Origin: Polyangiaceae bacterium
GTDB taxonomy: Bacteria > Myxococcota_A > Polyangia > Polyangiales > Polyangiaceae
Length of the DNA: 43,915 nt
Reading direction: 5' to 3'
Assembly (NCBI GenBank): GCA_029261965.1
Contig: JAJDAH010000448.1
Location: 1 to 43,915, forward strand
In this document: one piece after another, positions 11,704 through 43,915 of the stretch
Numbering within the stretch: position 1 is the stretch's first letter
Layout of the letters: each line of letters starts with the position of its first letter
Notes under the pieces: generated by a model
What the model was told of the DNA's origin: nothing
Databases searched by the model: none
Seen by the model: the letters and a program-made list of their open reading frames with translations, nothing else
Position numbers and translations under genes: made by a program

Positions 11704-13965
11704 ATGGGACGTATGAAGAGAAGTCGAGTTGCTTGGGTGGCGATATTCGCCCTGTCGTTGCCGCTCGCTGCGTGCGGGAGCAGCTCGGAGGGGCCCAGCG
11801 GGTCGGGCGATAGACTGCTGGAGCCGGGGAAACCCGTGGCGCCGATCGAGCGTCCGGGCATGCAGGAAGCCCGAAACCAGCTTCAGATCGAGCTCGATGG
11901 CGTCAGCGACTGGACCGCCGACGATTTGCTCGATCGATACGGCGTCGCGTTCAGCGATTCGCTCTCCTACGACCCGCTCCAGGCCGACGGGCTGTCGCTC
12001 ATTCAGGCGTCATCGCTCGGCTTGGACGCCGACGAAACGGCGCGGCTCGCTCAGAACGGGTTCGTGATTACCGCCCGTCAGGAGTTCCCGACGTTCACCT
12101 ATGGCTACGAGACGATCTACCTCGAAGATCTTCCGGTCTACATCTCGGCCGACTCCGTCCTGTACGCGGTGCACCGTTCGTACGACACGCTGCTCGAACG
12201 CATCGAGGAGGGCGCGCTCATTCCGGCCCTCGACGGCATGCTCGACGAGATGCGTCGAGCGCTCACGAATTCCGGGCTCCCGCTGACGGCGCAGCAACGA
12301 GCCGACGCGGATTTGTATCTGACCGTCGCGCTCAGCCTGCTTCGAGGGCAAAGCGAGCCACCGGCGGCTGGTGCGTCTTCGGTGGCGATCGAAAGTTTCC
12401 TCGACAACGCCGAGGCAGCCAGCGCCTGGCAACGGCTGACGCTCTTCGGCGTCGAACGCGACATCGACTTCTCGATGTTCACGCCGCGAGGCCACTATGC
12501 GAACTCCCAACGGCTCACGACGTACTTCCGAGCGATGACTTGGCTCGGACGTCTGGACTTCCGCATCATCGAGACACAGCCGGACGGCTCGCAAGTCTTC
12601 CATCGGAGGCAGCTCGAGGGAGCGCTCGCGCTGCGCTGGCTGATGAACGACCAAGCGAGGCGGAGCTACGACGTCATCGACCGCGCCATCACGGCGTTCG
12701 TCGGCGAGCACGACTACATGACGGTGCCCGAACTCGACGACCTGATCGTCGACTTGGGGCTGCAAGACGCCTCCGCTCTGACGAACCTCGGCGACGGGGA
12801 AATCGCCCAAGCCGTGCTCGACGGCGGCTACGGGGCGCAGCGCATCTCGAGCCACATCATGATCAACGGTCTGACGGGGGGTACGCTCCCGCTCTCGTCC
12901 TCATTCGCGTTGATGGGTCAACGCTACGTCATCGACAGCCACGTCTTTTCGAACGTGGTTTACGACCGCGCCGGCGGAGGAGACGTCGCGCGAATGATGC
13001 CCGATCCGCTCGACGCGGCCTTCGCGGCACTCGCCAACGATCACGCGGGCCAGCTTCTCGAGCCGGAGCTGCGGGCGTTCGACTATGCGCCCGACCTCGC
13101 GTCGATGCGCCTGCTCGCCGACGCGCATCCCCCGGAATTCTGGCAAACAAACCTCTACAACCTCTGGCTGGGCGCGCTGCGCGGGCTTTCACCCTCCGGA
13201 GCCGTCGAGGATCCCGCCTCCGCCGGGATACCGCTCGTCAGCGCTACCGAACCGTGGGGCCGTCGCATACTGAACACTCAGCTCGCTTCGTGGGCCGAGC
13301 TCCGCCACGACACGATTCTCTACGCGAAGCAGTCCTTCACCGCCGGTGGCGCGTGCGAGTTTCCCGACGCCTACGTCGATCCCTACCCCGACACGTTCCT
13401 CGCGATCGCTTCACTCGCAGAGCAGGGCAAGGCGCTGGCAGTCGAGCTGCCCTGGAACGACACGTGGACGGCGGACGGCGTCTCGAGCTACTTCGACGCC
13501 CTCTACGACACCGCGCTTCGTCTCCACGAAATCGCCGCACGACAGCGCACGGGCACACCGCTCACCCCGGACCAGCTCGCGTTCGTCAACGAAGCGGTGG
13601 CGACGGTATCGGAGGGCTGCACCGGCGAGGCGGACTCGGCGACGGGATGGTACGCGCGCCTGTTCTTGGACCGCACGAAAGCGGTGGAATGGGACCCCAC
13701 GATCGCCGACGTGCACACCCAACCGACCGACATCGGGGGCACTCCAGTGGGGCGCGTTTTGCACGTCGGAACCGGTCGCGCCCGACTCATGGTCGTGACC
13801 GTCGACACCTGCTCGGGCCCACGCGCCTATGCCGGTCTCGCTTCGTCGTACTATGAAACGATCACCGAGGACTTCGAGCGGCTCGACGACGACGGTTGGA
13901 GAACAGATCTCGACTCTGGCGCGCAGCCAGAGCCCGAATGGGTCGACGCTGTCGTACAGCGCTGA
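11704..13965 (+). CDS. DUF3160 domain lipoprotein
   Basis: 753 residues from ATG 11704, preceded by GGAGG at a 5-base spacing. The signal peptide ends with lipobox LAAC. The rest matches DUF3160: the signature NGFVITARQEFPTFTYGYETIYLEDLPVYISADS-type region (given here by its key run FVITARQEFPTF and LPVYISADSVLYAVHRSYD) is at about residues 115-160, with family-typical FLDN, YFRAMTWLGR, QASWAELRHDTILYAKQS-like and WYARLF segments in order. DUF3160 proteins are secreted, all-helical and of unknown function, and are frequent in myxobacteria and Bacteroidetes. The gene stands alone, with divergent DNA-binding-like genes upstream and a toxin-antitoxin region downstream. Confidence 0.9.
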   Translation: MGRMKRSRVAWVAIFALSLPLAACGSSSEGPSGSGDRLLEPGKPVAPIERPGMQEARNQLQIELDGVSDWTADDLLDRYGVAFSDSLSYDPLQADGLSLIQASSLGLDADETARLAQNGFVITARQEFPTFTYGYETIYLEDLPVYISADSVLYAVHRSYDTLLERIEEGALIPALDGMLDEMRRALTNSGLPLTAQQRADADLYLTVALSLLRGQSEPPAAGASSVAIESFLDNAEAASAWQRLTLFGVERDIDFSMFTPRGHYANSQRLTTYFRAMTWLGRLDFRIIETQPDGSQVFHRRQLEGALALRWLMNDQARRSYDVIDRAITAFVGEHDYMTVPELDDLIVDLGLQDASALTNLGDGEIAQAVLDGGYGAQRISSHIMINGLTGGTLPLSSSFALMGQRYVIDSHVFSNVVYDRAGGGDVARMMPDPLDAAFAALANDHAGQLLEPELRAFDYAPDLASMRLLADAHPPEFWQTNLYNLWLGALRGLSPSGAVEDPASAGIPLVSATEPWGRRILNTQLASWAELRHDTILYAKQSFTAGGACEFPDAYVDPYPDTFLAIASLAEQGKALAVELPWNDTWTADGVSSYFDALYDTALRLHEIAARQRTGTPLTPDQLAFVNEAVATVSEGCTGEADSATGWYARLFLDRTKAVEWDPTIADVHTQPTDIGGTPVGRVLHVGTGRARLMVVTVDTCSGPRAYAGLASSYYETITEDFERLDDDGWRTDLDSGAQPEPEWVDAVVQR

Positions 13966-14023
13966 GCGTGGCTCGCGCTCGCTTGCAAACCGCTCGCGCC
14001 GGCCTCCGATCGGCTTCGCTGTC

Positions 14024-14101
14024 GTGACTCTCGACGACGACCTCGTAGCCGAGGCAGTAGCACTTTCTGGGTTGGGGAAATCTGCGCGAAGTGCGCGCTG
14101 G
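14024..14101 (+). pseudogene. VapB-like antitoxin fragment
   Basis: From GTG 14024 the frame reads TLDDDLVAEAVALSGL followed by GKSA. This is the N-terminal ribbon and first helix typical of VapB-type (DUF2191) antitoxins, which run T-(L/I)-DDDLVAEA-(4)-GLKTK. After about 25 residues the family likeness ends and no VapC follows, so this looks like a decayed remnant. The frame runs without a stop into the MazE-like gene, but the intervening residues look non-coding. Confidence 0.45.
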
Positions 14102-14220
14102 ATGACGCCGCGAGATGGGCGTCGGCCCGAAAGAGGACAGCCGCGCCGCCGCGCCAGTTCGTGCTCACGCTCCCGTTCGAGCTTCGCACTCGCCTCGGTT
14201 GAAGCGGCCGGCCACGGATG

Positions 14221-14260
14221 TTGGCTTGGCCCAATAAGAATCCTATTGTATTTATCCAAC
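14221..14260 (+). promoter_or_regulatory. AT-rich leader/operator region of the toxin-antitoxin pair
   Basis: The 40 bases before the antitoxin ATG are much AT-richer than the flanks. They include TATTGTAT (-10-like, about 14243-14250) and an upstream TTGGCT about 18 bases away. ATAA and TTAT blocks form a loose inverted repeat. Autoregulation by the ribbon-helix-helix antitoxin would be expected. The ribosome site is not obvious. Confidence 0.4.
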
Positions 14261-14503
14261 ATGTCGGCCAAGCCGGTGCAGGTGTCGATTGACGAAGGGC
14301 TGCTCCGCGAGGTCGACCGCGATCCCGACGTCAAGCGCGATGGTCGATCGGCGTTCGTTCGGAACGCGCTGCGACTCTACCTTCGCGTCAAAGCCCGTCG
14401 ACGCGTCGACGAACGAATCCGCAGAGCGTATCGGAATGAAACGGACGAGCTCGTGGGCGAGATAGACGATCTCATCGAGGCTCAGGAGTGGCCCGAGAAA
14501 TAG
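14261..14503 (+). CDS. Ribbon-helix-helix antitoxin (MazE/CopG type)
   Basis: 80 residues. The N-terminal KPVQVSIDEGLLREVDRD is the ribbon-helix-helix strand and first helix; GRSAFVRNALRLYLRVKARR is the second helix. The acidic C-terminus (RNETDELVGEIDDLIEAQEW) is the usual toxin-binding tail. The last 16 bases overlap the MazF-like toxin gene, the standard antitoxin-first order. The protein should neutralise the toxin and repress the shared promoter. It could equally be called CopG-family; the toxin neighbour decides. Confidence 0.85.
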   Translation: MSAKPVQVSIDEGLLREVDRDPDVKRDGRSAFVRNALRLYLRVKARRRVDERIRRAYRNETDELVGEIDDLIEAQEWPEK

Positions 14504-14814
14504 CGCGTGGACAGCTCTGGCAGCTTCGACTTGCACGGCCAGACAAGCAATGTCCGGTTCTCGTGCTGAGCCGCGACTCGCTGCTTGACGTCTTGCACAC
14601 GGTCACTGTTGCGGCGGTGACCTCGACGTTGCGCGGCTCGCCGACGGAAGTGGAGGTCGGCGTCGACGAAGGACTGAAACACCCGAGTTGCGTGAATCTC
14701 GTGAATGTCTTTACGGTCCGCCAGAGCGACCTTCGTCGCTTCGTCGGATCCCTGAGCGCACAAAAGATGCTTGAAGTCTGCGACGCACTCGAAATCGCCG
14801 TTGGCTGCGACTAG
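14488..14814 (+). CDS. MazF/PemK-family mRNA interferase toxin
   Basis: 108 residues from GTG 14488, overlapping the antitoxin by 16 bases. The family core is present: RGQLWQLRLARPDKQCPVLVLSRDS (the usual RG-(D/E)-(I/L)-W ... P-hydroxyl-VLSRD), then VAAVTSTLRGSPTEVEVG, with the conserved LKHPSCVNLVNVFTVRQSDL block and the Ser/Thr after the first strand. MazF toxins cut mRNA at short sequences and stop growth when the antitoxin is lost. Length is typical. The pair is probably functional because neither gene is broken. Confidence 0.88.
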   Translation: MAREIARGQLWQLRLARPDKQCPVLVLSRDSLLDVLHTVTVAAVTSTLRGSPTEVEVGVDEGLKHPSCVNLVNVFTVRQSDLRRFVGSLSAQKMLEVCDALEIAVGCD

Positions 14815-15172
14815 CAGGACCGCTCGGGCTTCGTTGGTGTCGTCCCCGTTGGTGTTCCAGGTTGCACGTTCAGCGCCCCCGACCGCCACCCTGCGGGACT
14901 TAGGGGTTCAGCTACCGGACCAGAAAAACGAGTCGAAGGGCATCCGCCCCAATCGGTACGCGAATCTGTGCGGGGAGTTCGAGCACGCGGTCTACTTGCC
15001 GAAGGAGCTCTGGGATCACCTCGGCAGCGAAGAGAGGGTCATCGCGGCGTTGAAGCGCTTGGCCGATGTCTCGCGGGACGAGGGTGGCCGCGGCGCCGCC
15101 GAGTAGGAGCGGAAAGCAGACGCTGCTGCTGTGGCCTCCGACGCGTCGGCGCATCGTGACGGACGCCGGGCC
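14815..15172. other. 358-base gap with one weak reading frame
   Basis: No convincing gene. A plus-strand frame ending with the TAG at about 15104 reads EFEHAVYLPKELWDHL and then GSEERVIAALKRLADVSRDE, which has protein-like composition. No ATG or GTG with a ribosome site begins it outside the toxin gene. It may be the C-terminal remnant of a lost gene. The opposite-strand frame looks like its shadow. Confidence 0.35.
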
Positions 15173-33334: not shown

Positions 33335-34429
33335 ATGGCTTCCGTGCGCTCGGGTGAGCGGGCCAGATTCTCGCTGGCGAGCTCGCCGCTTCGGTGGACT
33401 CTTCACGCTCTGTACGTCCTGCCCATGCTCTGGGCGCTCCAGGCCTTCGACTCATGGCTGATCGAGGACGACGCCGAGCGGCCGGAGCCGACGTTTTCCC
33501 GCCGGCGCGTCAGTCCACCAACCGAGCCACCGAAGCCGCGTTCGGAGCGAAAGGGGCTGACCTGGCAGCTCGAGCGTGTGGACGAAAAACCAGAAGCGAA
33601 GGTCATCGTGCTGGGTCAGAGCACGATGGGGCAGTGGCTCACCCCGAGCTACCTCAGCCGCATGCTCGGCGTTCGCGACCGAGACGTTCTCGACGCCCAC
33701 CTCGGCGGTTGTCACCCGGACTGCACGTGGGCTGAGGTCCGACGACTGAAAGCGAAAACGCGACGCTTCGACACGGCTTTTTTCGGCCTGAACCTGTACC
33801 AAATGTGCGACCAGCCGTCGTGGAAGCGGTCGATGCAGCACGTCAGCATGACGCCGCCCGACTCGACCCTCGACCTCTACGCGCTGTACGCGCAAAGCAA
33901 GGACCCACTCGAGCACGTCGGCCAACACGCGGGCATGCACGTGCTCCTGGCTACTCAGGACCCAGTGTACGTCCGAGCCAAGCTCGCCGATGCGCTCTCG
34001 ATTCGAAACACTCTCGGGCACCGCTCACCATCCTGGTGGCGGGACGAAAAAGCCCCGGTGCGCGTCGACCCTGAAAAGAGACGCGGCTGGCTTCCCACCT
34101 GCGACTACGAAAAGGATTCTCTCGGCGGCAAACCCGCGTTCGTCGCGGCCCTGCTCGATGAGCTCAGCGCCATTTCCTCGCGCACCTTCCTCCTCGTCCT
34201 GCCGGACAGACTGCTGCTCCTGCCCGAACACCAGTCCGCTTGGCAAAAACACCGGGAGCTCATGGCGTCGCTCGCCGCGGAGCGCGAGCACGTTTCGCTC
34301 ATCGACCTCGCCACGGACGGCGCCCGGCACTGGAACCACTTCCGTGACGCCGTGCACGTCGCCGGACGCGGGCGGTCGTTGCAACGCCAACTATTCGTCC
34401 GGCGCCTGAAGGAGCTGGACGCACTGTGA
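33335..34429 (+). CDS. SGNH-hydrolase-like partner of a MBOAT acyltransferase
   Basis: 364 residues. One N-terminal membrane anchor (about 22-40, TLHALYVLPMLWALQAF) is followed by a periplasmic SGNH-like domain. The nucleophile loop is VIVLGQSTMGQW (Ser96, GQS in place of GDS) and the C-terminal catalytic-like pair is Asp338/His341 in FRDAVHV. The layout is that of AlgJ/AlgX/DltD-type proteins, which act with a MBOAT channel acyltransferase to O-acetylate or acylate an envelope polymer. The GTG of the MBOAT gene overlaps this stop (GTGA at 34426-34429), confirming the pairing. The polymer is unknown. Confidence 0.78.
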   Translation: MASVRSGERARFSLASSPLRWTLHALYVLPMLWALQAFDSWLIEDDAERPEPTFSRRRVSPPTEPPKPRSERKGLTWQLERVDEKPEAKVIVLGQSTMGQWLTPSYLSRMLGVRDRDVLDAHLGGCHPDCTWAEVRRLKAKTRRFDTAFFGLNLYQMCDQPSWKRSMQHVSMTPPDSTLDLYALYAQSKDPLEHVGQHAGMHVLLATQDPVYVRAKLADALSIRNTLGHRSPSWWRDEKAPVRVDPEKRRGWLPTCDYEKDSLGGKPAFVAALLDELSAISSRTFLLVLPDRLLLLPEHQSAWQKHRELMASLAAEREHVSLIDLATDGARHWNHFRDAVHVAGRGRSLQRQLFVRRLKELDAL

Positions 34430-35955
34430 TTTTCCCGACATGGGAGTTCACCCTTTTTTTCGGGGTGTTCTTCGTGGGCTTCCTCGCGCTCGGCGGCCGG
34501 GCGCGCAAGGTGTGGACTCTCCTGGCCAGCTACGCCTTCTACGCGTCCTGGAACCTCTCGTTTTGCGCCCTGCTTCTGCTCTCCACCGTGGTCGACTTCG
34601 GTGTCGCGCGAGCCCTGGCGTCGACCGAACGCGTCGGGCGTCGGCGGCAGCTTCTCGCGCTGAGCGCCGTCGTGAACCTCGGCGTGCTCGCCTACTTCAA
34701 GTACTGCAACTTCTTCGTCGGCTCGTTCGCCGCGCTGCTGTCGAGCGCAGGCATCGAAGCCAACGTGCCCCTGCTCGAAATCGTGCTGCCGGTCGGGATC
34801 TCGTTCTACACGTTTCAGACCCTCGCCTACACCATCGACGTCTACCGCGGTGAACTGAAGCCGACTCGTTCACTCCTGGATTTCGCGATCTACGTCGCGT
34901 TCTTCCCGCAACTGGTCGCAGGCCCCATCGAACGGGCCGGGCGACTTCTTCCTCAGATCGAAAACCTCGGCCGGCGTCTGGAAAACGGCGCGCTCGGCCG
35001 GATCCGGTGGGACGGCCTCGCTTTCGTCGCCCTCGGTGCGTTCAAGAAGGCCGTGCTCGCGGACAACTTCGCCGCAATCGTCGAGACCACCTACCAGAAC
35101 CCCGCGGACACCTCTCCCTTGGCGCTTTGGGTCGGCACCTACGCATTCGCGATCCAGATCTACTGTGACTTCTCGGGCTACTCCGACATGGCCGTCGGGA
35201 TCGCGCGGCTGATGGGCGTGGACCTCGTGCAGAACTTCCGAGCCCCGTACGCCGCCGCCGGGCCGCAGGAGTTTTGGCAGCGGTGGCACATCTCACTGTC
35301 GACTTGGTTGCGGGACTATCTCTACATTCCGCTCGGAGGCAACCGGGGCGACGTTTGGCGCACCGGGAGAAATCTCCTCATCGTCATGTTCCTCGGCGGC
35401 CTCTGGCACGGCGCCGCGTGGAGCTACGTCTTGTGGGGCGTGTTCCACGGCGCGCTGCTCGTTCTGTATCGAATGGCTGGCTCCGGATGGGTAACCGGGG
35501 TGCTCGGGACCGCGTCGTCCAGCCTACGGGTGCGTGTGCCTGGCTTGTTCTCGTGGCGGCCGGGCCGCTTGGCCGCGAACGGCGTTTGGACATTGCTTCG
35601 GCGAACGCTGTTCTTTCATTTCGTCTGCCTGGGCTGGGCGCTTTTCCGAGCCCGCTCCACGGCTGATTGCCGCGTGCTCTGGAGCAAGCTCACGAGCGCC
35701 GGCGGCGCAGACTTCGGGAGCTTCTGGACGCGGATCGATGCCTCCGGCGAGGGCAACTACCTCACGCTCATGTTTTTCGCCGGCTGCGCGGTCTTGTTGG
35801 CTCAAAACATCTGGCCGGTCGGCACCGACCGGGTCGTCAACGTCTTTTGGCGCCTCCCCACGCCAATTCGCTTCGCGACCATCGTGGCCCTCGCCTACGC
35901 GACCGTCATCCTGTCGCCGCCGGCGTCGCCACCGTTCATCTATTTCCAGTTCTGA
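34426..35955 (+). CDS. MBOAT family O-acyltransferase (AlgI/DltB-like)
   Basis: 509 residues and about ten membrane segments. Family signatures: VLPVGISFYTFQTLAYTIDVYRGE (120-144), FPQLVAGPIERAGRLLPQ, YCDFSGYSDMAVGIARLMG (about 247-265), FWQRWHISLSTWLRDYLYIPLGGNRGD with His288, and LGGLWHGAAW with the catalytic His328. AlgI/DltB-type enzymes carry acyl groups across the inner membrane to a periplasmic acceptor. It starts at GTG 34426, overlapping the SGNH-like gene, and is the last plus-strand gene before a convergent regulator. Confidence 0.93.
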   Translation: MIFPTWEFTLFFGVFFVGFLALGGRARKVWTLLASYAFYASWNLSFCALLLLSTVVDFGVARALASTERVGRRRQLLALSAVVNLGVLAYFKYCNFFVGSFAALLSSAGIEANVPLLEIVLPVGISFYTFQTLAYTIDVYRGELKPTRSLLDFAIYVAFFPQLVAGPIERAGRLLPQIENLGRRLENGALGRIRWDGLAFVALGAFKKAVLADNFAAIVETTYQNPADTSPLALWVGTYAFAIQIYCDFSGYSDMAVGIARLMGVDLVQNFRAPYAAAGPQEFWQRWHISLSTWLRDYLYIPLGGNRGDVWRTGRNLLIVMFLGGLWHGAAWSYVLWGVFHGALLVLYRMAGSGWVTGVLGTASSSLRVRVPGLFSWRPGRLAANGVWTLLRRTLFFHFVCLGWALFRARSTADCRVLWSKLTSAGGADFGSFWTRIDASGEGNYLTLMFFAGCAVLLAQNIWPVGTDRVVNVFWRLPTPIRFATIVALAYATVILSPPASPPFIYFQF

Positions 35956-35974: not shown

Positions 35975-36556
35975 TCATGCCGTGGCAACCGCGCTCGCGA
36001 GTCCGAGCGTCTCGAGCAGCAGGTGCGTATCGAGCGGCTTCGACAGCACCGCCATCGCTCCAGCATCCGCGAAGGACGCTTCGAGCTGGCGCGTGAGCCG
36101 CCCAGACAGCGCGACGATCATGATGCTCTTCGTCTCCGGGCTCGCCTGGAGCCGCTTGCACAGATCCACGCCGTTGACGCCCGGCATGTAGGCGTCCACC
36201 AGCACCGCGTCCGGCCGAAACAAACCGATCTTGAGCAACGCATCCATCGAGCTCTCCGCCGTCTCGACCGTCAACTTCGGTGCGTGGCGTTTGATGAGCC
36301 GCTTCGCGTTCCGCAGGAACGTCGTGTCGTCGTCGATAATCAGCAATCGCGCCACGCCCGCAAGAGACAGGGGCACGGGCATGTCGTGATCTCGGAGAAA
36401 TCGAATCAGTGCCCCCCGCTCGACCCGCCGATGCCCGCCGGGCGTGCGATAGGCCGCAAGCAGACCGTTGTCGATCCAGTTGAGAACCGCCGAGGGGCTC
36501 GCGTTGATGAGCTTCGCGACGGCATGTGAGCTGAGATAGTCGGTGGGTGCGTCCAT
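35975..36556 (-). CDS. MerR-like helix-turn-helix fused to a receiver domain
   Basis: 193 residues. The N-terminal excisionase/MerR-type HTH (6-52: SSHAVAKLINASPSAVLNWI, then GLLAAYRTPGGHRRVE) is followed by a CheY-like receiver (about 70-188) with the acidic pocket DDD (75-77), phospho-acceptor Asp121 in VLVDAYMPG, Ser151 and Lys173 (LSKP). This order, DNA-binding domain first and receiver second, is the reverse of the usual one. It starts 65 bases after the stop of the kinase fusion gene on the same strand, so its phosphodonor may be the histidine kinase or receiver of that protein. It is the likely output of the locus. Confidence 0.88.
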   Translation of the reverse strand: MDAPTDYLSSHAVAKLINASPSAVLNWIDNGLLAAYRTPGGHRRVERGALIRFLRDHDMPVPLSLAGVARLLIIDDDTTFLRNAKRLIKRHAPKLTVETAESSMDALLKIGLFRPDAVLVDAYMPGVNGVDLCKRLQASPETKSIMIVALSGRLTRQLEASFADAGAMAVLSKPLDTHLLLETLGLASAVATA

Positions 36557-36621
36557 TCTACTATACCTCTGAACGGTCCATTTCTTCGTCCCTTTAGCCT
36601 AATCCGTCGCGGCGGTTCCGA

Positions 36622-39600
36622 CTATCCGCCATCGAGCAGTTTTCTGATCTTCTCCGCCAGAACCTCGTGATGAATGGGTTTTTGCAGGAACTCCACGCTT
36701 TTGCCCAAAATCCCCCGTTCGGCCAGAACCCCCCCCGCCTGCCCCGACATGAACAAAACCTTCGTTTCGGGCCGTAGCTCGCGGACCCTCCGGGCAGTCT
36801 CCAGACCGTTCATCCCGGGAATGAGTACGTCCGAGAGCAGCAAATCGATCGACTCCGCGTGCCCCTCCACGATTTTCAACGCCTCCTCGCCACTCGCCGC
36901 CGTCAGCACCGAGTACCCATAAGTCTCGAGCACCCGCCGAAGCGGCCGGCGGACCAAAGGCTCGTCTTCGACCAGGAGTACGGTCTCGCGGCCACGCAGC
37001 GACTCCCGAGCGTCACGAGACTCCGTCGGCACCTTTGATACATCCGCCGACGGGAAGTGGATCGTGAACGTCGTACCAACGCCCTCCTGACTTTCCACCT
37101 CGATCACGCCACCGGCTTGCGTGATGATTCCGTGCACCGAGGCGAGCCCCAAACCCGTACCTCCTCGCTCGATTTTCGTCGTGAAGTACGGTTCGAACAC
37201 GCGCTTCCGCACGTCCTCCGGCATGCCCTGACCATCGTCGGCAACCGAGAGGGCCACATGGACTCCAGCGGCCAAGCCATTCGGGGAGCGTTCCTTGATG
37301 ACGGCCCGCGCCGTCCGGATCACGATCTTTCCGCCGCCCGGCAACGCGTCCCGTGCGTTGATGACCAGATTGGTCAATACCTGGTCGAGCTGCCCGGGAT
37401 CGACCATGACGTTCGGCACATCGTCCGCCAAGTTGGTCTCAAGCGTGATTCTGTCCCCGACGAGTTGATTCAAGATCGAGCGGAGTGCCCGGGCGGCGTC
37501 ATTCACTCGAACGAGCTCGGGTTCGGAGAATTGTCCCTTCGAGAACGCCAGAAGCTGTCGCGTCAAATCCTCGGCCCGCACCGTCGCACTTCGTATCGTC
37601 CGAATGTCCTCGAGCTGTTCCCCCTCGGTCGCGTCGAGCTCGAGCACCTCCGCCGCCGCGCGAATCGTCGCAAGCAAGTTGTTGAAGTCGTGACCGATGC
37701 CACCCGCAAGGCGCTCGACGGCTTCCAGCTTCTGGGTCTGATGCAACTGCTCGGCGGCTCGTTCGCGCTCACCGAGCACTCGAGCAAGCTCGAGGGCAAC
37801 GGGGATCTGCAGAGCGAGTGCATGAAGCACTTCCGCGTCGTCGCCACCAAAAACGCCTAGCGGCAGCCTGCGGTCCAAGTAGACGATACCAATGGCGCGG
37901 TGCCGAACCATCAGAGTCGCGGCGATGATGCTGCGGCGCTCGGTTCTGGCAACCGCGACGCCGTCGTCGATGTCCGCCGCGTCCTCATCCGCGTAGGCGA
38001 GCAGCAACCCTTGGATGACGTCTCGGTCGTAGTCGGCCGAGGCATCGAGATCCGTGCCATCCAGCGCTCGGCCGGCCAACAACTTCAACCGGCCATCGTT
38101 GTCGGACTGCGGGGCATCTGGTTCGAGGCCAATGCGTTCGCTCGTGAGGAAAATGAAGCCTCGTTCGGCATGAAGTGACCGAACAATCTCGTCGATGACC
38201 ACGCGCGCTTGATGCTCGGGTTCGAGATCGGCCACCGGCGCCCGCCCAACCCGGAGCAGCGTTCTGAGATATGCGCGCGTTCGCGATCGACGGCCCGTCA
38301 GCCCCGTGACCGACATGCTCGAAGCCACCATGTCGGAGCGGGCGCCTCGGCGCGGCTTCAACCCAAACTCTTCGCGTACCCAGCGCGCGCGATAGACCGC
38401 GCCATGTTCTTCCGCCAGAGCTTCAGCCATGCGCGCCTGGTCACGGGCCGCATCGAGTTGTCCCGCCGCTTGAAGCAAGTGCGCTCGCCCTCTATGAACG
38501 GCATACAAGACCCAAGGGGCCGCTTCCTGTTGGGCAAGCGCTTCCGCCTGAGCGAACAATTTTTCGGCGGCGGGTCGATCCGACTCGAAAAATCGCAGGC
38601 CCGCCTCGATCACCAGCTGATGCGCATCGAACAATGGGATTCGAGCTGCCCGGCGGAGCTCGTCGTGCGCTGCTTCGAGGAGACGCAGGCATGTTGGCCG
38701 GGTCTGCTCGTCGCAGCGGTAGCATGCGTGCAGACGCGCGTGAGCAGCGTAAACATAGTACTCGTGCACCTCGAGGTGAGCGCGAGGCGGGTCAAACTTC
38801 TCTGCTCTGAACTCTTCGACCAACGCCTCGAACTCTTCTCCCAGGTCGCCCGTTTCACTGAAGCGCCTAACTCGGGCTCCGTAGTTCGAGATGTGCTGTA
38901 CGCCCTTCGCAGGAGCGCGAACCGCTGTCCGTTCTAGGGGACTGACCAAGGCGTCTGCGTCAGCGTCGCGACCGAGGCTAGCAAGGACGCCACGCGCACA
39001 GGCCTCGACGTGCTCCACGACGAGAGGAGCGCCCTCGTGTTGCGCAACCTTCGCGATCGAACGTTCCATCCACTTCCAAGCCTCCCTGCATCGCCCACGG
39101 ACCGACTCGACCTGCGCTTGGTTGTAAGCTGTCAAACAGAAGTCACTCAGTTCACGCCAGTGACCGTACTCGGTAAGCGACCTAGCGCCCGCATCGAGTG
39201 CCGCTGGCACGTCGCCGTTCCAAATTGCAACTACAGCTTGCATTTGAAGTGCTTGCGCATAGAGCGCTGGGTCGCGCAGTTCGCGAGCGACGTCATCCGA
39301 TGCCGAGAGGTAGCGGCGAGCACTGTCTCTCCGGCCGAGGACGCACCGCAGCATTGCATGCAGCCCAAGGCTCTTCACCATGGCATCCGACGGACCTAGC
39401 CAATCGGCAACACGGCTCGACCGCAGCGTGACTTGCACGAAGATCGATGGCTGAGCTTTCTGAAAGGAGAGCCGGGCAAGCTGATAGTAGAGCGTCGCCA
39501 ACATTTCGGCCCGCCAACGATCGCCAGACCACGGCACCAACCGCCCGAATGCGCGGTGGAACACCCAACCGACAAGTGCAATCAACGTCGGCCAAATACC

Positions 39601-42093
39601 GTCACTGGGCGGCTTTGCTCCCACCACGCGCAACGCTTCGCAGAGGGCTATCCACGACCGATCCGCATCGAAGTTCAGCTCAATCCATGCGATTCGGGAA
39701 AGAACCATCGCCTTGGTGATCGTATCGACTTCGATCTGGCGAAACCCCTCGAATCTGCTTTTCGCAAGTTCGAGCGAGCCAACGCGCAGGTACGCCTCTC
39801 CGAGGAGGTAGCTCAGCTCCGGATGGATGGAATCTGCAAGCTGCGCGTGGGCTTTTTCCGCGACCTCCAACGATGCGATTGCTCGACTGTTGTCGAAACT
39901 ACGGAACGACAACCTCGCGGCCATGAGGTTGGACACGAACGTGCGCTCAGGGTTTTCGGCCGTGAATCCACGCGCATAGTGAAATGCCCGAGTATGCACT
40001 TTCTCCTCGAACTCTGTGCCAACTTCAGGATCAAGCTCGAGCAAAGCGCGACCGATGAGCGAGTTGACATAGTCTCGGTCGAGTGCCTCTTCATCGATCG
40101 CATCTGCGATCAACTGGTGGGTTTGCCGCCTCTCCAGATCCCCCATGGCTTCGAGCAACGCTTCCCGCACGCGGTGATGTGAAAACACGTGGCGCCCATT
40201 CTCGATCGCTTCCACGAGTCGCGCGCGCCGCGCATTCGCCAGAGTGGCTTGGACCTCAGAGGCCTCCAACCGAGAGACCTTGACCACGAGCTCGTCATCG
40301 AAGGCATCGCCAGCGACGGCACCTATCGAGAGTACGGCCTGGGCCGCTCGATCGAGACGCGTGATCCGACCCGCCAACAGGTCCGGAACCGCTCCGGTGG
40401 CGGGGAGCTCTGTGAGCCTCTCGGAATAGAATCGCCACACGCCCCAGTGAGGCCCGACCGCGCCAACGTCCAACATGGCGCGCACAACCTCGAGCACCGC
40501 GAGCGGCGTGCCGTCGCTCAATGCGCGAACACAACGGTGCAAATCAGCGTCCACCGACCCGCCGCCCAAGTACTCGGTAACCAATTCGGAGACTTCGATG
40601 TCGGTGAACGGGCCGAGGCTGATCTCGGCCAAGGTTGCACCGACCGCCGCGTCTCGGAGCTCGTCGGCGCTCCGCTCAAACTCGTCCCCGGTGCGAGTTG
40701 CCAGCAGAATCGCCACCTTTGACTCCGTCGCGCTGGCGAACGTTCTCTTTAGAACGCTTCGGCTCCCATCGTCGAGCCATTGCGTGTCGTCCACGAACAG
40801 CATTGTAGGTGCGAGGCTCGACAGGAAGTTCCGAAGGAATTCGCTCAGCCCTTCGACGAAAACATGTCCCGCGTCATCGGTGCGCGGCACCGTTCGGGTA
40901 TCGTCGAACAAGAAACCAATGCGTGGTGAAAGAACCCGAACCAGCGGAGCCAAGTCCCCCGCAGCCGCGCGAAGGGCTGCAACTCGTTTCACGCGTTCAC
41001 GCGCCGGCACGTGGGGCAATTCATCCAGGTAGGATTCGATCAGCTGCCGGATGACGAAAAAGGGCCTGGTTCCGTCGGAGGGGCAGCGGGCGACTAGCAC
41101 TGGCCGTCCCAATTCGCGCACCTCATTCAGAAATCCGCTCGCGACTGTGGTCTTCCCGCTCCCAGGGGACCCTCTCAACACGGAGAGGGTGCTCTTCATG
41201 GTCTCGGCTTCGTCCCATGCGCGACGGAGCGCGTTGAGCTCGACACTGCGCCCGACCAAACAGACATCGTCGAGGCTGGGGGTCCTCCCCGCGTCGGCAG
41301 CGACCGCTGAGTCGTCACTGGAGCACGCTGCATCTAGCGCTCGCAGTACGAGTCGCGCGTTCGCAAATCGGTCATCAGGTCGCCGTTCGAGCAGCCGGCG
41401 AATGAGTTCGCGGAGGCGTGGAGTGACCGCGGACCCGCGCAGCTGCTCGTCCACGTCACCATCAGGTGGTCGTCCTGTAAGGCAGGCAACCATCACGCTA
41501 CCGAGCGCGAACAGATCCGCCCTACCGTCGATTCGCGTCCTGAATACGCTCAACTGTTCGGGCGCCGAGTACTCTCGAGTACCAACTGCGCTCGACGCAT
41601 CCTGCGCGTCGCTAGCCACGGCGAATCCGAAATCGACCAGGCGGGCCGCGCCCGTGCTCGCGTCAAAGATGATGTTCTGTGGCTTGACGTCCCTATGAAC
41701 CAGACCTGCCCGATGGATCGCATCGAGGGCGGTCGCGACTTGCACGCCGAGCGCGGTCGTCTCCCGCTCGGTGAATACCTTGCTGAGAATGCGGTCGGCC
41801 AAGGTTTCTCCCGCGGCCAGCTCCATTACCAGGTACGGAATGTCGCCTACTTCGCCGACTTCCATGACCTTCATGAGGTTTGGATGGGTGACCCTAGCCA
41901 GCGCGACTGCTTCGCGGCGAAAACGCGTTGCTATGCTTTGTCTGTCGAGCGGACCTTCCTCGTCGAAGCCAAGAGGCAACTTGACAGCGTAGGTCGTATT
42001 CTTGCGGCGTCCCTTGTAGACGACGCTGAATCCACCCCGCCCGAGTTCCTGCAGGAGTTCGATTTGCGGGATTCGAATTCGCGGCTCTGCCAT
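36622..42093 (-). CDS. Giant Ser/Thr kinase-AAA-TPR-GAF-histidine kinase-receiver fusion protein
   Basis: 1,823 residues from ATG 42093 (a TTG at 42144 would add 17). Domains in order: Ser/Thr kinase (about 8-255; GRGGF loop, Lys38, HRDVKPQN 133-140, DFG 154-156); an AAA/AcyC-type ATPase (about 280-620) with Walker A GSPGSGKT (308-315) and Walker B TMLFVDD (430-436); a TPR-like helical region (about 650-1270); a GAF domain (about 1300-1450); a histidine kinase with His1468 in GGIGHDFNNLL, NLVINARDAL, DDGQGMP and GGTGLGLA; and a receiver with Asp1755 (LLLSDVLIPGMNG) and Lys1805. All catalytic residues look intact. No membrane segment is seen. The layout resembles PknK and the kinase-cyclase proteins linked to TOMM loci, but ends in a phosphorelay instead of a cyclase. 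Confidence 0.9.
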   Translation of the reverse strand: MAEPRIRIPQIELLQELGRGGFSVVYKGRRKNTTYAVKLPLGFDEEGPLDRQSIATRFRREAVALARVTHPNLMKVMEVGEVGDIPYLVMELAAGETLADRILSKVFTERETTALGVQVATALDAIHRAGLVHRDVKPQNIIFDASTGAARLVDFGFAVASDAQDASSAVGTREYSAPEQLSVFRTRIDGRADLFALGSVMVACLTGRPPDGDVDEQLRGSAVTPRLRELIRRLLERRPDDRFANARLVLRALDAACSSDDSAVAADAGRTPSLDDVCLVGRSVELNALRRAWDEAETMKSTLSVLRGSPGSGKTTVASGFLNEVRELGRPVLVARCPSDGTRPFFVIRQLIESYLDELPHVPARERVKRVAALRAAAGDLAPLVRVLSPRIGFLFDDTRTVPRTDDAGHVFVEGLSEFLRNFLSSLAPTMLFVDDTQWLDDGSRSVLKRTFASATESKVAILLATRTGDEFERSADELRDAAVGATLAEISLGPFTDIEVSELVTEYLGGGSVDADLHRCVRALSDGTPLAVLEVVRAMLDVGAVGPHWGVWRFYSERLTELPATGAVPDLLAGRITRLDRAAQAVLSIGAVAGDAFDDELVVKVSRLEASEVQATLANARRARLVEAIENGRHVFSHHRVREALLEAMGDLERRQTHQLIADAIDEEALDRDYVNSLIGRALLELDPEVGTEFEEKVHTRAFHYARGFTAENPERTFVSNLMAARLSFRSFDNSRAIASLEVAEKAHAQLADSIHPELSYLLGEAYLRVGSLELAKSRFEGFRQIEVDTITKAMVLSRIAWIELNFDADRSWIALCEALRVVGAKPPSDGIWPTLIALVGWVFHRAFGRLVPWSGDRWRAEMLATLYYQLARLSFQKAQPSIFVQVTLRSSRVADWLGPSDAMVKSLGLHAMLRCVLGRRDSARRYLSASDDVARELRDPALYAQALQMQAVVAIWNGDVPAALDAGARSLTEYGHWRELSDFCLTAYNQAQVESVRGRCREAWKWMERSIAKVAQHEGAPLVVEHVEACARGVLASLGRDADADALVSPLERTAVRAPAKGVQHISNYGARVRRFSETGDLGEEFEALVEEFRAEKFDPPRAHLEVHEYYVYAAHARLHACYRCDEQTRPTCLRLLEAAHDELRRAARIPLFDAHQLVIEAGLRFFESDRPAAEKLFAQAEALAQQEAAPWVLYAVHRGRAHLLQAAGQLDAARDQARMAEALAEEHGAVYRARWVREEFGLKPRRGARSDMVASSMSVTGLTGRRSRTRAYLRTLLRVGRAPVADLEPEHQARVVIDEIVRSLHAERGFIFLTSERIGLEPDAPQSDNDGRLKLLAGRALDGTDLDASADYDRDVIQGLLLAYADEDAADIDDGVAVARTERRSIIAATLMVRHRAIGIVYLDRRLPLGVFGGDDAEVLHALALQIPVALELARVLGERERAAEQLHQTQKLEAVERLAGGIGHDFNNLLATIRAAAEVLELDATEGEQLEDIRTIRSATVRAEDLTRQLLAFSKGQFSEPELVRVNDAARALRSILNQLVGDRITLETNLADDVPNVMVDPGQLDQVLTNLVINARDALPGGGKIVIRTARAVIKERSPNGLAAGVHVALSVADDGQGMPEDVRKRVFEPYFTTKIERGGTGLGLASVHGIITQAGGVIEVESQEGVGTTFTIHFPSADVSKVPTESRDARESLRGRETVLLVEDEPLVRRPLRRVLETYGYSVLTAASGEEALKIVEGHAESIDLLLSDVLIPGMNGLETARRVRELRPETKVLFMSGQAGGVLAERGILGKSVEFLQKPIHHEVLAEKIRKLLDGG

Positions 42094-42171
42094 CGACTGG
42101 TCGGCAAAGATACCGTGATAGTCCGGGTCGAGAAAGCCCAGCAATATCGACGCACCGCCAAGGTCGACGCC

Positions 42172-43182
42172 TCAAGCAACAGGATGTATTAGCAACTCCC
42201 TAGGCACCGGTCCGACGAGGTTCGGATGACCGACGCCAAACGTTAGAGCCATCGCGTTTTCTTGGAGGGCCTTCGAGACGAACACCTCGCCCTTCAGTTC
42301 CGGAGGGGTCAGGTCGACATAGTGCGTGTCATCCGCGCCACCGCACTCGATCGTCGCGTGCGGTGATGAACCCTCAATCCAACGAGCAATGGCATCCTGA
42401 TTGCCCGGACACAAGTAGTACTCCTGATGAAAGTGGGGTCTGGGCTCGGGGTCCGGCGACCTCGTGGGAATTTCCTCGCCCCAGAGGAAACCGAGCCGTT
42501 GAACGCACTCCTGCGACGCTGCCGCCACGGCCTCGACCAAGCGAGAACGGGCGCCGAACCCGTAGGCAAAAGGATATTCGTCGCACTCAGGAAAACCGAA
42601 TACAGCGGCAACGCGACCCGGATTTCGTCCTTGCCCAGCAAGTTCATACGCCTTGAAACTGTAGACGCCGGCGAACCCCGCCACGTCGAAATCGTCGGGC
42701 AGCGCCACCGTTCTCAGTCGCCCCTCCCCGAACCATCCACGAAGAACAGCGTCCCGTTCAACGAGTTCCCACCTCGCGCGGCGGCAAGCGTCGCGCCAAC
42801 CACGGCCAGCGGCAACGCCATTGGACACCGAGTACTGCCAACCCCTCGATCCGTCCGCGACAGGAAAAACCTCGTCGTGACGCAGTTCACGCCCCGCAAC
42901 GCCCGCCGCGTCATGCAAGCGGTAGCAAGCTGAGCCGCGAGCCTGCGCTTCCAGAATGCATGCCCGTTCAACGAGTTCGTAATACGCTCGCGCGAACGGA
43001 GGCGCCTCCATGTTTCCGGCGGCGCTGCCGAGGGCAGAGCCGCCCCTTTTGTGATGCGCGACGAGCCCCACGAGCGCGATGCTGGTTCGCCCGATATCGA
43101 CTATCTCGTGGAAAACCTCCGGCTTACACCATCCGTTCGGGAGGGGAATCTCCTCTTGCAGGTCACGCAGAGGCCCGAACAC
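42172..43182 (-). CDS. YcaO-domain protein (TOMM cyclodehydratase-like)
   Basis: 336 residues from GTG 43182, which has GGGGAGG six bases upstream. This start lies inside the 3' end of the diiron gene, a 20-base overlap. YcaO hallmarks are visible: GSALGSAAGNMEAPPFARAYYELVERAC (ATP-site Glu69 and Glu72), SVSNGVAAGRGWRDACRRARWELVERDAVLRGW (Glu139, Glu142, Asp144) and RSRLVEAVAAASQECVQR (Glu217, Gln224). YcaO enzymes use ATP to activate peptide amides and build azolines, thioamides or amidines in ribosomal peptides. The protein is shorter than typical cyclodehydratases, has no fused E1-like partner, and ends HPVA without the PxPxP tail of azoline-forming members. The kinase fusion follows closely in the same frame. 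Confidence 0.85.
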   Translation of the reverse strand: MFGPLRDLQEEIPLPNGWCKPEVFHEIVDIGRTSIALVGLVAHHKRGGSALGSAAGNMEAPPFARAYYELVERACILEAQARGSACYRLHDAAGVAGRELRHDEVFPVADGSRGWQYSVSNGVAAGRGWRDACRRARWELVERDAVLRGWFGEGRLRTVALPDDFDVAGFAGVYSFKAYELAGQGRNPGRVAAVFGFPECDEYPFAYGFGARSRLVEAVAAASQECVQRLGFLWGEEIPTRSPDPEPRPHFHQEYYLCPGNQDAIARWIEGSSPHATIECGGADDTHYVDLTPPELKGEVFVSKALQENAMALTFGVGHPNLVGPVPRELLIHPVA

Positions 43183-43852
43183 GTGTCGCCTCCCCCAGCT
43201 CCATGGCCGCGAGCTCGTCGAAGAAGAGATCGAAACTGTGCGTGGTGCGACGAAGAGTCTGAAGGAGGGGCGCCAGCATCGTTTCGTCGGTGACGAGTTT
43301 TTCGATCTCGGAGAATCCTTCAGCAACGTGCGCCTTGTCCAACTCGACATGTTTCCCGATCACCGAAAGTGCGGAGGCCGGAACACCGCAGCTGCCGTTC
43401 AATGCCTGTAGCCACTCTGCACCGAGCAGGACGATGAAGTACTCGGCGAAGAACACATACGCCAGATACGAGCTTGGCTCCTTTTCGATGGTGAGTCGAA
43501 GTTGGTCCACCAACTCCTTCATGGATCGAGTCGGCTTGACGGCGGGATACACACCGAAAATCTCCGACATCGTCGCCAGGTCCTGTTCCGCCCACCGATC
43601 GTGGCCGACTTCCTCCCGGGCTTTGAGGGCAAAGAATTCCGCAATGGCGGCCTCCCCACGGCAAGCGCAGTTTGCACGAGCGAGATCGAGAAATGGTGGA
43701 GTGTGCCGAATCAAGAAGTGGATGTTGGCCAGATAGGTCGCGATGGTCTGAGGACTCAATCGCCCGTCCCGGGCGAGCTGGAGCAGTGACGCATGCGTCC
43801 TGACCTTTTCCGCGTAGTCTTCGATTTCCCGCACCAGCGCATCGCTAATCAT
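43163..43852 (-). CDS. Heme-oxygenase-like diiron (HDO/TenA-PqqC fold) protein
   Basis: 229 residues from ATG 43852, with GGAGG five bases upstream. All-helical heme-oxygenase-like fold. The ligand pattern of the iron-containing redox group is present: LKAREEVGHDRW (Glu80/81, His84), FFAEYF (Glu137) and KHVELDKAH, an HxxxDxxH motif (His168, Asp172, His175). Relatives are HDO oxygenases that desaturate, decarboxylate or N-oxygenate small molecules, together with TenA/PqqC. The metal motif favours a diiron oxidase over TenA. The TGA lies inside the YcaO start region (20-base overlap), so the two are translated together and the enzyme may act on the YcaO substrate or product. Confidence 0.85.
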   Translation of the reverse strand: MISDALVREIEDYAEKVRTHASLLQLARDGRLSPQTIATYLANIHFLIRHTPPFLDLARANCACRGEAAIAEFFALKAREEVGHDRWAEQDLATMSEIFGVYPAVKPTRSMKELVDQLRLTIEKEPSSYLAYVFFAEYFIVLLGAEWLQALNGSCGVPASALSVIGKHVELDKAHVAEGFSEIEKLVTDETMLAPLLQTLRRTTHSFDLFFDELAAMELGEATRVRASA

Positions 43853-43885
43853 CGATACCTCCAAAACGACCGTCGCCGGCCAAGT

Positions 43886-43915
43886 TCAAACGGGGACTAG
43901 CGCGGCCCCCGCACG
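43886..43915 (-). CDS. Possible 3' end of an upstream gene running off the window
   Basis: Nine codons (RAGAALVPV) end with TGA 43886-43888, 33 bases before the diiron gene's ATG. Position and spacing fit the tail of the preceding gene of the operon, which could be a precursor peptide or another modification enzyme. Too short to identify, and it could be chance. Confidence 0.3.
   Translation of the reverse strand, partial: RAGAALVPV

Follow-up and report, generated by a model that had tools for sequence, protein, structure and literature searches.

Of 183 genomes of the order, 20 share a gene cassette comprising a GNAT acyltransferase, a micro-ORF, a YcaO enzyme and a giant sensor kinase, mostly together with an HDO-type (heme-oxygenase-like dimetal oxidase) gene, and this cassette appears to point to a so far undescribed type of peptide signal in bacteria. 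With moderate confidence, we read it as a leaderless micro-peptide RiPP cassette whose modified product is probably a signal read by the AAA/helical-repeat sensor of the giant, the conservation of the peptide being an observation and its chemistry a prediction. The window, meaning the whole 43,915-nucleotide stretch that was analysed, probably holds the 3' part of such a cassette, which would make a modified micro-peptide and sense it.

Four minus-strand genes lie in close order in the window, and their positions and all spacings were confirmed as the initial annotation gave them. The HDO-type gene (43163..43852, minus strand, 229 aa) overlaps the YcaO gene (42172..43182, minus strand, GTG start at 43182, 336 aa) by 20 bases, and the latter is followed after 78 bases (27 if a TTG start is used) by the giant sensor kinase (36622..42093, minus strand, 1823 aa) and, after a further 65 bases, by a regulator with a MerR-like HTH and a receiver (35975..36556, minus strand). 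The contig breaks off inside the operon, 63 bases upstream of HDO, and the truncated leader of the HDO gene that runs to the contig end (43853..43915, minus strand) is GC-rich, at a place where many other loci have a hairpin. Outside the window, at the end of contig C152 of the same genome (G000), lie what are probably the operon's first two genes: there the GNAT gene (C152, 15043-15741) is directly followed by the micro-ORF MKKRFALTTL* (C152, 15762-15794) with a strong Shine-Dalgarno (SD) sequence. This contig end is likely the missing 5' part of the window operon, a link drawn from single-copy status and from shared synteny with relatives rather than from reads. The GNAT copy of the window genome matched Acetyltransf_1 with 24.6 bits against a cut-off of 20.7, this family was matched at E<=0.1 in 15/15 GNAT members, and no GNAT relatives were found in viral contigs and plasmids. 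In one genome (G116), a divergent receiver-EAL protein lies upstream of GNAT, and BLAST matches it to receiver domains of similar ORFs in G121 and G122.

The initial annotation had proposed a peptide-modifying locus and, as a test, a search for a small conserved ORF on the upstream side of HDO; the proposal is supported and the test succeeds, with a micro-ORF in 21/21 loci (20 in the order and one outside), placed upstream of HDO wherever HDO occurs. All 21 encode 9-10 residues, in 20 distinct peptides with the consensus M-(K/R)-K-[K/R]-F-A-x-x-[S/T/C]-x (round brackets optional), and every one has an SD core of 4 to 7 bases situated 4-8 bases upstream. K at -8, F at -6 and A at -5 are invariant, the alanine being encoded by all four codons (GCA 5, GCC 5, GCG 6, GCT 5), while the penultimate residue is T (10), S (6) or C (5) in every peptide and uses nine codons, both serine codon families among them. 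Serine, threonine and cysteine are the residues modified by azoline-forming YcaO enzymes. Among the cysteine peptides is that of G124, MKKFALGCF, whose Cys may be the most reactive. A DNA pattern combining SD and micro-ORF gave 18 matches in the 183 genomes, each in a cassette, and none in a reversed control; it was derived from known members, but is still fairer than the shuffle test (0/6300), for which regions were picked for holding the ORF and the expression was fitted to the set. A narrower pattern (ATG start, F/L endings only) missed four of the eight GNAT-bearing genomes of its draw (G076, G119, G060 and G428), and its fifth match, in G377, was out of frame and counted as chance. As in known RiPPs, a ribosomal precursor gene adjoins modifying enzymes; a leader or follower region, which is typical but not universal as a guide for RiPP enzymes, is absent, the whole peptide being 9-10 residues long. 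We also considered that a longer precursor of a conventional TOMM might lie concealed in the locus, and rejected this, as the GNAT-HDO spacers (39-232 bases, by ORF calls) held no other shared ORF by eye. Micro-precursors are a trait shared with the biarylitides and myxarylin, which derive from a pentapeptide called the smallest reported precursor, one of them in a myxobacterium; these are cross-linked by a P450, the word YcaO is absent from their description, and its available part describes no GNAT, HDO or kinase (PMC12951456).

One and the same set of 20/183 genomes is picked out by GNAT, by YcaO of the cassette type and by the sensor region of the giant, including three in which YcaO lies on another contig. 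The YcaO search matched 24 genomes, of which G126, G152, G013 and G018 (E 1.3e-4 to 3.6e-4) had no GNAT match and were left out, and the sensor-region search matched 21, the 20 cassette genomes plus a weaker outlier, G026, also left out (27% identity, an open frame that stops after the helical region, and a contig without a cassette gene). This shared profile opposes a chance linkage of kinase and YcaO, and kinase homologues occurring mostly without YcaO or HDO neighbours, the outcome that the initial annotation had set against its own reading, did not arise. Distances among GNAT, YcaO, HDO and giant were also correlated (r 0.78-0.93), but were left out as evidence because shared ancestry yields the same. 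Outside the order, one genome (G428, 6% contaminated, locus on a 10 kb contig) has YcaO, GNAT, micro-ORF and HDO, with no giant on that contig or, at E<=1e-5, in the genome, and sensing by the giant is therefore not obligatory. Apart from the cassette families, no gene family was seen to be widely shared around the loci, the largest clusters of ORFs spanning four loci of one genus; a dedicated protease or exporter was thus not recognised, which is what a leaderless product would allow. The same observations bear on an unlikely alternative, namely that the modified micro-peptide is a bacteriocin-like antibiotic or toxin and the kinase regulates its production or resistance instead of acting as a cell-to-cell receptor. 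Many azole peptides of known activity are antimicrobial, and the biosynthetic part without the giant in G428 would suit such a role; however, no immunity gene was broadly shared either, none of the order's 20 cassette genomes lacks the sensor region of the giant, and the peptide sequence is under tight constraint throughout the order, whereas toxins often diversify.

Gene order around the micro-ORF speaks to its own function. GNAT is constant as the 5' gene, while the 3' gene varies, being mostly HDO, YcaO in the radical-SAM variants described below and the giant in G060. Behind the micro-ORF, a hairpin reaches z <= -3 (mononucleotide shuffles of 70 bases) in 7/20 folded loci (G133 -7.6, G116 -7.2, G142 -5.7, G168 -4.4, G124 -4.2, G428 -3.8, G169 -3.2), and is not stronger than shuffles in several others (G076, G071, G092, G138, G179, G100). 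An SD, a short ORF and then a strong hairpin would also be expected of a regulatory leader peptide that controls the downstream genes via the hairpin by attenuation or ribosome stalling, with YcaO acting on another substrate, but we consider this improbable, given the loci without a hairpin above shuffles, the changing downstream and constant upstream gene, and an interchangeability of S, T and C that fits YcaO chemistry and not stalling.

The HDO of the window falls below the Pfam cut-off for PF14518 (E 2e-4; 21.6 bits versus 28.9), while a profile of its relatives matched the heme-oxygenase-fold chains 3dde (4.9e-9) and UndA (1.7e-4). Residues E80/E81, H84, E137, H168, D172 and H175 are invariant in 14 aligned rows and are, we assume by analogy, His/carboxylate metal ligands. 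The AlphaFold model (pLDDT 52.6, no fold match at E<=0.001) is too weak to support the fold, and assigning a subfamily by fold was abandoned for that reason. Matches of at least 207 bits occurred in 16/183 genomes, all cassette-bearing, the search having matched 35 genomes of which 19, at <=104 bits, were uncounted, G060 (50.5 bits) among them. Two genomes encode a B12 radical-SAM enzyme in place of HDO, and neither has an HDO match at E<=1e-8. In G142 a remnant of HDO is left, in G060 the gene is gone from the locus, and no radical-SAM replacement was found in either; the HDO step may therefore be dispensable. It is very improbable that the product is a metal-binding molecule, as might be proposed from the TonB-dependent receptor (11890-14286) and Fur-family (14374-14901) genes just upstream of GNAT, in the same direction, in the window genome (locus L045), and from the occurrence of HDOs in chalkophore production (PMC13108848, available part): tblastn with the two proteins (E<=1e-3) gave no match in the stretches of the other 20 loci, many of which end at contig breaks, and 16/21 peptides have Thr or Ser, not Cys, as their conserved nucleophile.

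YcaO itself is above its family cut-off (PF02624, 47.3 bits versus 25.7), with ten residues invariant in 19 aligned rows (E69, E72, R73, S120, G122, E139, E142, R143, E225 and Q228), SagD/TruD-like ATP-site motifs and the C-terminus HPVA, which is HPIA in most relatives. Among solved structures its profile best matched TruD, MusD and LynD (E 1e-6 to 3e-5); its matches to E. coli YcaO (0.0099) and MJ1094 (0.029) were weaker. Some archaeal and bacterial YcaOs modify proteins, and the lack of RRE and E1-like families among the four window proteins is compatible with a protein-modification and signalling module that contains the micro-peptide as a small subunit unrelated to YcaO action, but this order of matches and the constant tie of YcaO to a peptide with a penultimate S, T or C make that scarcely plausible. 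In its ATP-site motifs, S/T/C substrate residues and nearest solved relatives the system resembles the TOMMs (linear azol(in)e peptides), while differing in the 9-10 residue leaderless precursor, in a score from the SagD model TIGR03604 (35.5 bits) that falls far short of the cut-off of 219.25, and in that no E1-like C protein, ocin-ThiF partner or FMN dehydrogenase was found among the four window proteins, which also contain no TfuA, the partner of thioamide-forming YcaOs. Goadsporin likewise combines a YcaO cyclodehydratase (GodD) with N-acetylation by a GNAT (GodH) on a ribosomal peptide, but its precursor GodA has a 30-residue leader and a 19-residue core and is served by a peptidase-transporter, and the available part of its description mentions no kinase or HDO (PMC5303826).

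The giant, described from Pfam matches and an alignment of 15 members, begins with a Ser/Thr kinase domain (41374..42060, minus strand; Pkinase 1.6e-40) whose catalytic motifs are intact in the window copy, followed by an AAA_16 ATPase domain (40720..41259, minus strand; 1.9e-16) with the Walker A motif GSPGSGKT, by the helical-repeat candidate sensor region used as query in the phylogenetic-profile search (38314..39930, minus strand), and by GAF (1.2e-4), HisKA (5.9e-9), HATPase_c (2.2e-23) and receiver (Response_reg, 1.4e-22) domains (36643..38217, minus strand). TPR evidence is weak (TPR_MalT, E 0.01), and the all-helical, low-confidence model of the sensor region (pLDDT 49.9) is too weak to support a fold. 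The comparison with TIGR03903, the TOMM kinase/cyclase fusion, suggested in the initial annotation was apt in that the sequence similarity has its centre in the AAA part (residues 276-669, the best of two matched stretches, which includes the AAA_16 domain) and likewise involves an adjoining YcaO gene; it is partial in reaching 201.2 bits of a 705.75 cut-off, and a Pfam scan found no cyclase family in the giant, which has a HisKA-HATPase-receiver output where the fusion has a cyclase. That annotation had also started the signalling chain with Ser/Thr phosphorylation, but the HRD/DFG motifs are absent in two of the 15 aligned giants (G160 and G060), whereas the Walker-A lysine and the phospho-acceptor His are kept in all 15, which does not support this first step as a necessary one. 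Nor is there support for the HTH-receiver (HTH_17, 32.3 bits, plus receiver), the end point of the chain in that annotation, as a general output conserved with the cassette: in the stretches of the other 20 loci, many of which are truncated at contig ends, tblastn matched the receiver part only, and the gene was accordingly not accepted as a cassette member. In overall architecture the giant resembles HstK-type double kinases such as cbSTKIII with its GAF and HisKA domains, but has a C-terminal receiver, and the available part of their description includes no peptide-modifying cassette (PMC2176072).

For a modified micro-peptide read by the giant, a route can be proposed in which the ribosome, judging from conservation, would make the leaderless 9-10 residue peptide. 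YcaO and ATP would then close the penultimate Ser, Thr or Cys onto the preceding carbonyl, giving an azoline beside the C-terminus, while GNAT would acylate the N-terminus or a conserved lysine. HDO, or the B12 radical-SAM enzyme instead, would oxidise the C-terminal end, azoline desaturation and oxidative decarboxylation being the favoured options. We infer that the giant senses the cassette product, which would bind its AAA/helical-repeat part, presumably in the cytosol, inside the maker or after re-import, and so shift the output of the histidine kinase and receiver; the Ser/Thr kinase domain would be accessory, and in the window genome the adjacent HTH-receiver may serve as output. The likeness to RRNPPA receptors and RopB-LCP would lie in a tiny leaderless peptide and a cytosolic helical-repeat receptor, which is proposed here; those systems, so far as the available parts of their descriptions extend, are found in Firmicutes and use linear oligopeptides, as against a predicted modified peptide and a candidate hybrid histidine kinase (PMC9765709, PMC10518010). 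More tentatively, the cassette may represent a novel class of signal between cells of Gram-negative bacteria, namely a ribosomal peptide of 9-10 residues that is made without a leader, acylated, converted to a heterocycle at its penultimate residue and oxidised, with a giant hybrid kinase as its own reader and interchangeable oxygen-dependent (HDO) and oxygen-independent (B12 radical-SAM) steps.

Genes as small as the micro-ORF are easily missed by annotation, and the combined SD and micro-ORF search pattern, with no stray match in 183 genomes, offers a way to find them. A concrete predicted substrate, its enzymes and a candidate receptor can now be named, and the exchange of HDO for a radical-SAM enzyme provides an unusual comparison of oxygen-dependent and oxygen-independent catalysis for what may be one step. 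If the proposal is correct, YcaO enzymes would be able to process an entire leaderless peptide of 9-10 residues, and peptide signalling through a dedicated kinase receptor would extend beyond the Firmicutes.

A conserved micro-ORF, preceded by a Shine–Dalgarno (SD) sequence, is tied to genes for YcaO and GNAT proteins, mostly accompanied by a heme-oxygenase-like dimetal oxidase (HDO) or a radical-SAM protein and, within the window's order, also by a giant sensor kinase (Ser/Thr kinase, AAA_16, helical-repeat region, GAF, HisKA, HATPase and receiver). After weak rows were dropped, the system was present in 20 of the 183 genomes of the order. Twelve encode GNAT, micro-ORF, HDO, YcaO and giant in this order on one contig, which stops inside the giant in G138 and G133. 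The cassette of the window's genome is split over two contigs, while in G178 the cassette contig stops within YcaO and the giant lies on a different one. G071 and G092 encode, ahead of GNAT, a radical-SAM protein that carries a B12-binding domain, and genome-wide searches at E≤1e-8 found no HDO in either; the radical-SAM protein had no match at E≤1e-20 in any other of the 22 genomes searched. The HDO of G142 is a 121-residue remnant that gave no match in the profile search, and in G100, G160 and G060 YcaO lies on another contig, with GNAT, micro-ORF and giant remaining together and, in G060, HDO absent from the cassette (12+2+2+1+3 = 20 genomes). Across an even draw of the phylum, GNAT was detected in 8 of 377 genomes.

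Some variants have further neighbours. An L-2-amino-thiazoline-4-carboxylic acid hydrolase family protein (L026, 759–1454) adjoins the giant in the radical-SAM variant of G092, a suggestive position for such a hydrolase beside an azoline-forming enzyme, and the relocated YcaO gene of G160 overlaps a PAPS-reductase-domain gene (L030, 9281–11373).

The micro-ORF was found in 21 of 21 loci and encodes 20 different peptides, 9 residues long in 13 loci and 10 in the other 8, with a GTG start in four cases and an SD core 4–8 bases upstream of each. Numbered back from the C-terminus, the peptides of all loci share K at −8, F at −6 and A at −5, with K or R at −7. Position −2 is occupied by T in 10 loci, S in 6 and C in 5, and the C-terminal residue is F in 12, L in 6 and H, A or Y in one each. 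As background, S, T and C together account for a fraction of 0.127 of the residues in proteins called nearby, which gives no exact probability because the loci are related. All four Ala codons occur at similar frequency at the invariant −5 position, and −2 is encoded by nine different codons, with both serine families among them; what is selected is therefore the peptide and, at −2, a chemical property. A pattern of GGAG, spacer and ORF, the ORF's last residue left free, matched 18 times in the 183 genomes, once in each of 18 cassette genomes and never outside them (reversed control, 0); it missed G133 and G168, which have weaker SDs. A narrower pattern, applied to the 377 phylum genomes, recovered four cassettes, missed another four and gave one further match, which was out of frame. 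We consider the micro-ORF almost certainly a translated part of the system. One of the two main rival explanations is that it is the leader peptide of an attenuator: of 20 folded loci, 7 carry behind the ORF a hairpin that clearly exceeds shuffles (z ≤ −3), the rest showing a weaker excess or none.

Re-checking the window sequence confirmed the four genes of the initial annotation (HDO, YcaO, giant and a MerR-like HTH-receiver), their order and all spacings. The HDO assignment also stands: the Pfam score is sub-threshold (21.6 of 28.9 bits), and support comes from a profile of 14 relatives, which matched the heme-oxygenase-fold chains 3dde (4.9e-9) and UndA (1.7e-4), and from a candidate metal-ligand set invariant in their alignment. 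The window's YcaO exceeds its Pfam cut-off, and ATP-site motifs are retained across the aligned family. The window is exactly contig C388, which ends 63 bases upstream of HDO. A search of the same genome with a GNAT protein, for the partner gene seen in relatives, located a single copy, which lies at one end of contig C152 and is followed by the SD sequence AAAGGAGG and, after 6 bases, the ORF MKKRFALTTL*; C152 ends 16 bases past this stop. Given the relatives' gene order and the single copy of each part, the two contigs probably represent one operon. Just upstream of GNAT, in the same direction, lie genes for a TonB-dependent receptor and a Fur-family regulator (L045, on C152, 11890–14901); tblastn against the 20 remaining locus stretches, many of them cut by contig ends, found no counterpart of either (E≤1e-3). 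In the window, an MBOAT acyltransferase gene (34426–35955) is convergent to the HTH-receiver gene. Elsewhere in this genome, an open frame of 693 residues contains another YcaO with a strong match (150 bits; L001, contig C292, 10908–11849); the surrounding 20 kb (L043) hold no MKKF-type micro-ORF.

The micro-peptide is probably the YcaO substrate. From the chemistry of these families, YcaO would form an azoline at the penultimate S/T/C, GNAT would N-acylate the peptide, for which goadsporin GodH offers a precedent (PMC5303826), and HDO would perform an oxidation. An HDO review cites ribosomal peptide modification via a thioamide genome-mining paper and nowhere contains the word YcaO (PMC13108848). 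Titles and abstract openings on YcaO, GNAT, HDO, short or leaderless precursors and TOMM kinases, with subscription papers and preprints outside the scope, yielded no description of the cassette, and no paper of the open literature searched combined MKKFA with YcaO.

The other main rival is that the product is an antibiotic. Outside the order, G428, the sole carrier among 79 genomes of its own order, carries a cassette of YcaO, GNAT, micro-ORF and HDO that lacks the giant; within the order, the giant is directly next on its cassette's contig in 19 of 20 genomes, the G178 contig ending earlier. The giant scored 201 of the required 705.75 bits against the NCBI model TIGR03903, best over residues 276–669. 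All 15 aligned giants retain the Walker-A lysine and phospho-acceptor histidine, while those of G160 and G060 have lost the catalytic motifs of the Ser/Thr kinase and that of G060 also the aspartate of its receiver. Conservation in the helical-repeat region comes close to that of the catalytic domains, and in a search of the 183 genomes this region alone marks cassette genomes. Together, these observations point to the AAA/helical-repeat part as the input, with the histidine kinase providing the output. The two giants with degenerate Ser/Thr kinase domains (pseudokinases; L073, 2963–8224, and L074, 4649–10033) both occur in genomes whose YcaO has moved from the cassette. A relative of the giant in G026 (L097, 1044–5114; 27% identity in the sensor region) has an open frame that ends after the helical region and no cassette genes on its contig.

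A divergent receiver-EAL protein lies upstream of GNAT in G116 (L036, 11859–13055), with similar receiver-bearing ORFs in the corresponding position of G121 and G122; near the giant, such a protein is a possible c-di-GMP output. From the giant's architecture, we lean slightly towards sensing of the product by this kinase. The analogies are helical-repeat receptors that bind short peptides (PMC9765709) and leaderless peptides whose secretion and re-import involve no signal sequence (PMC10518010).
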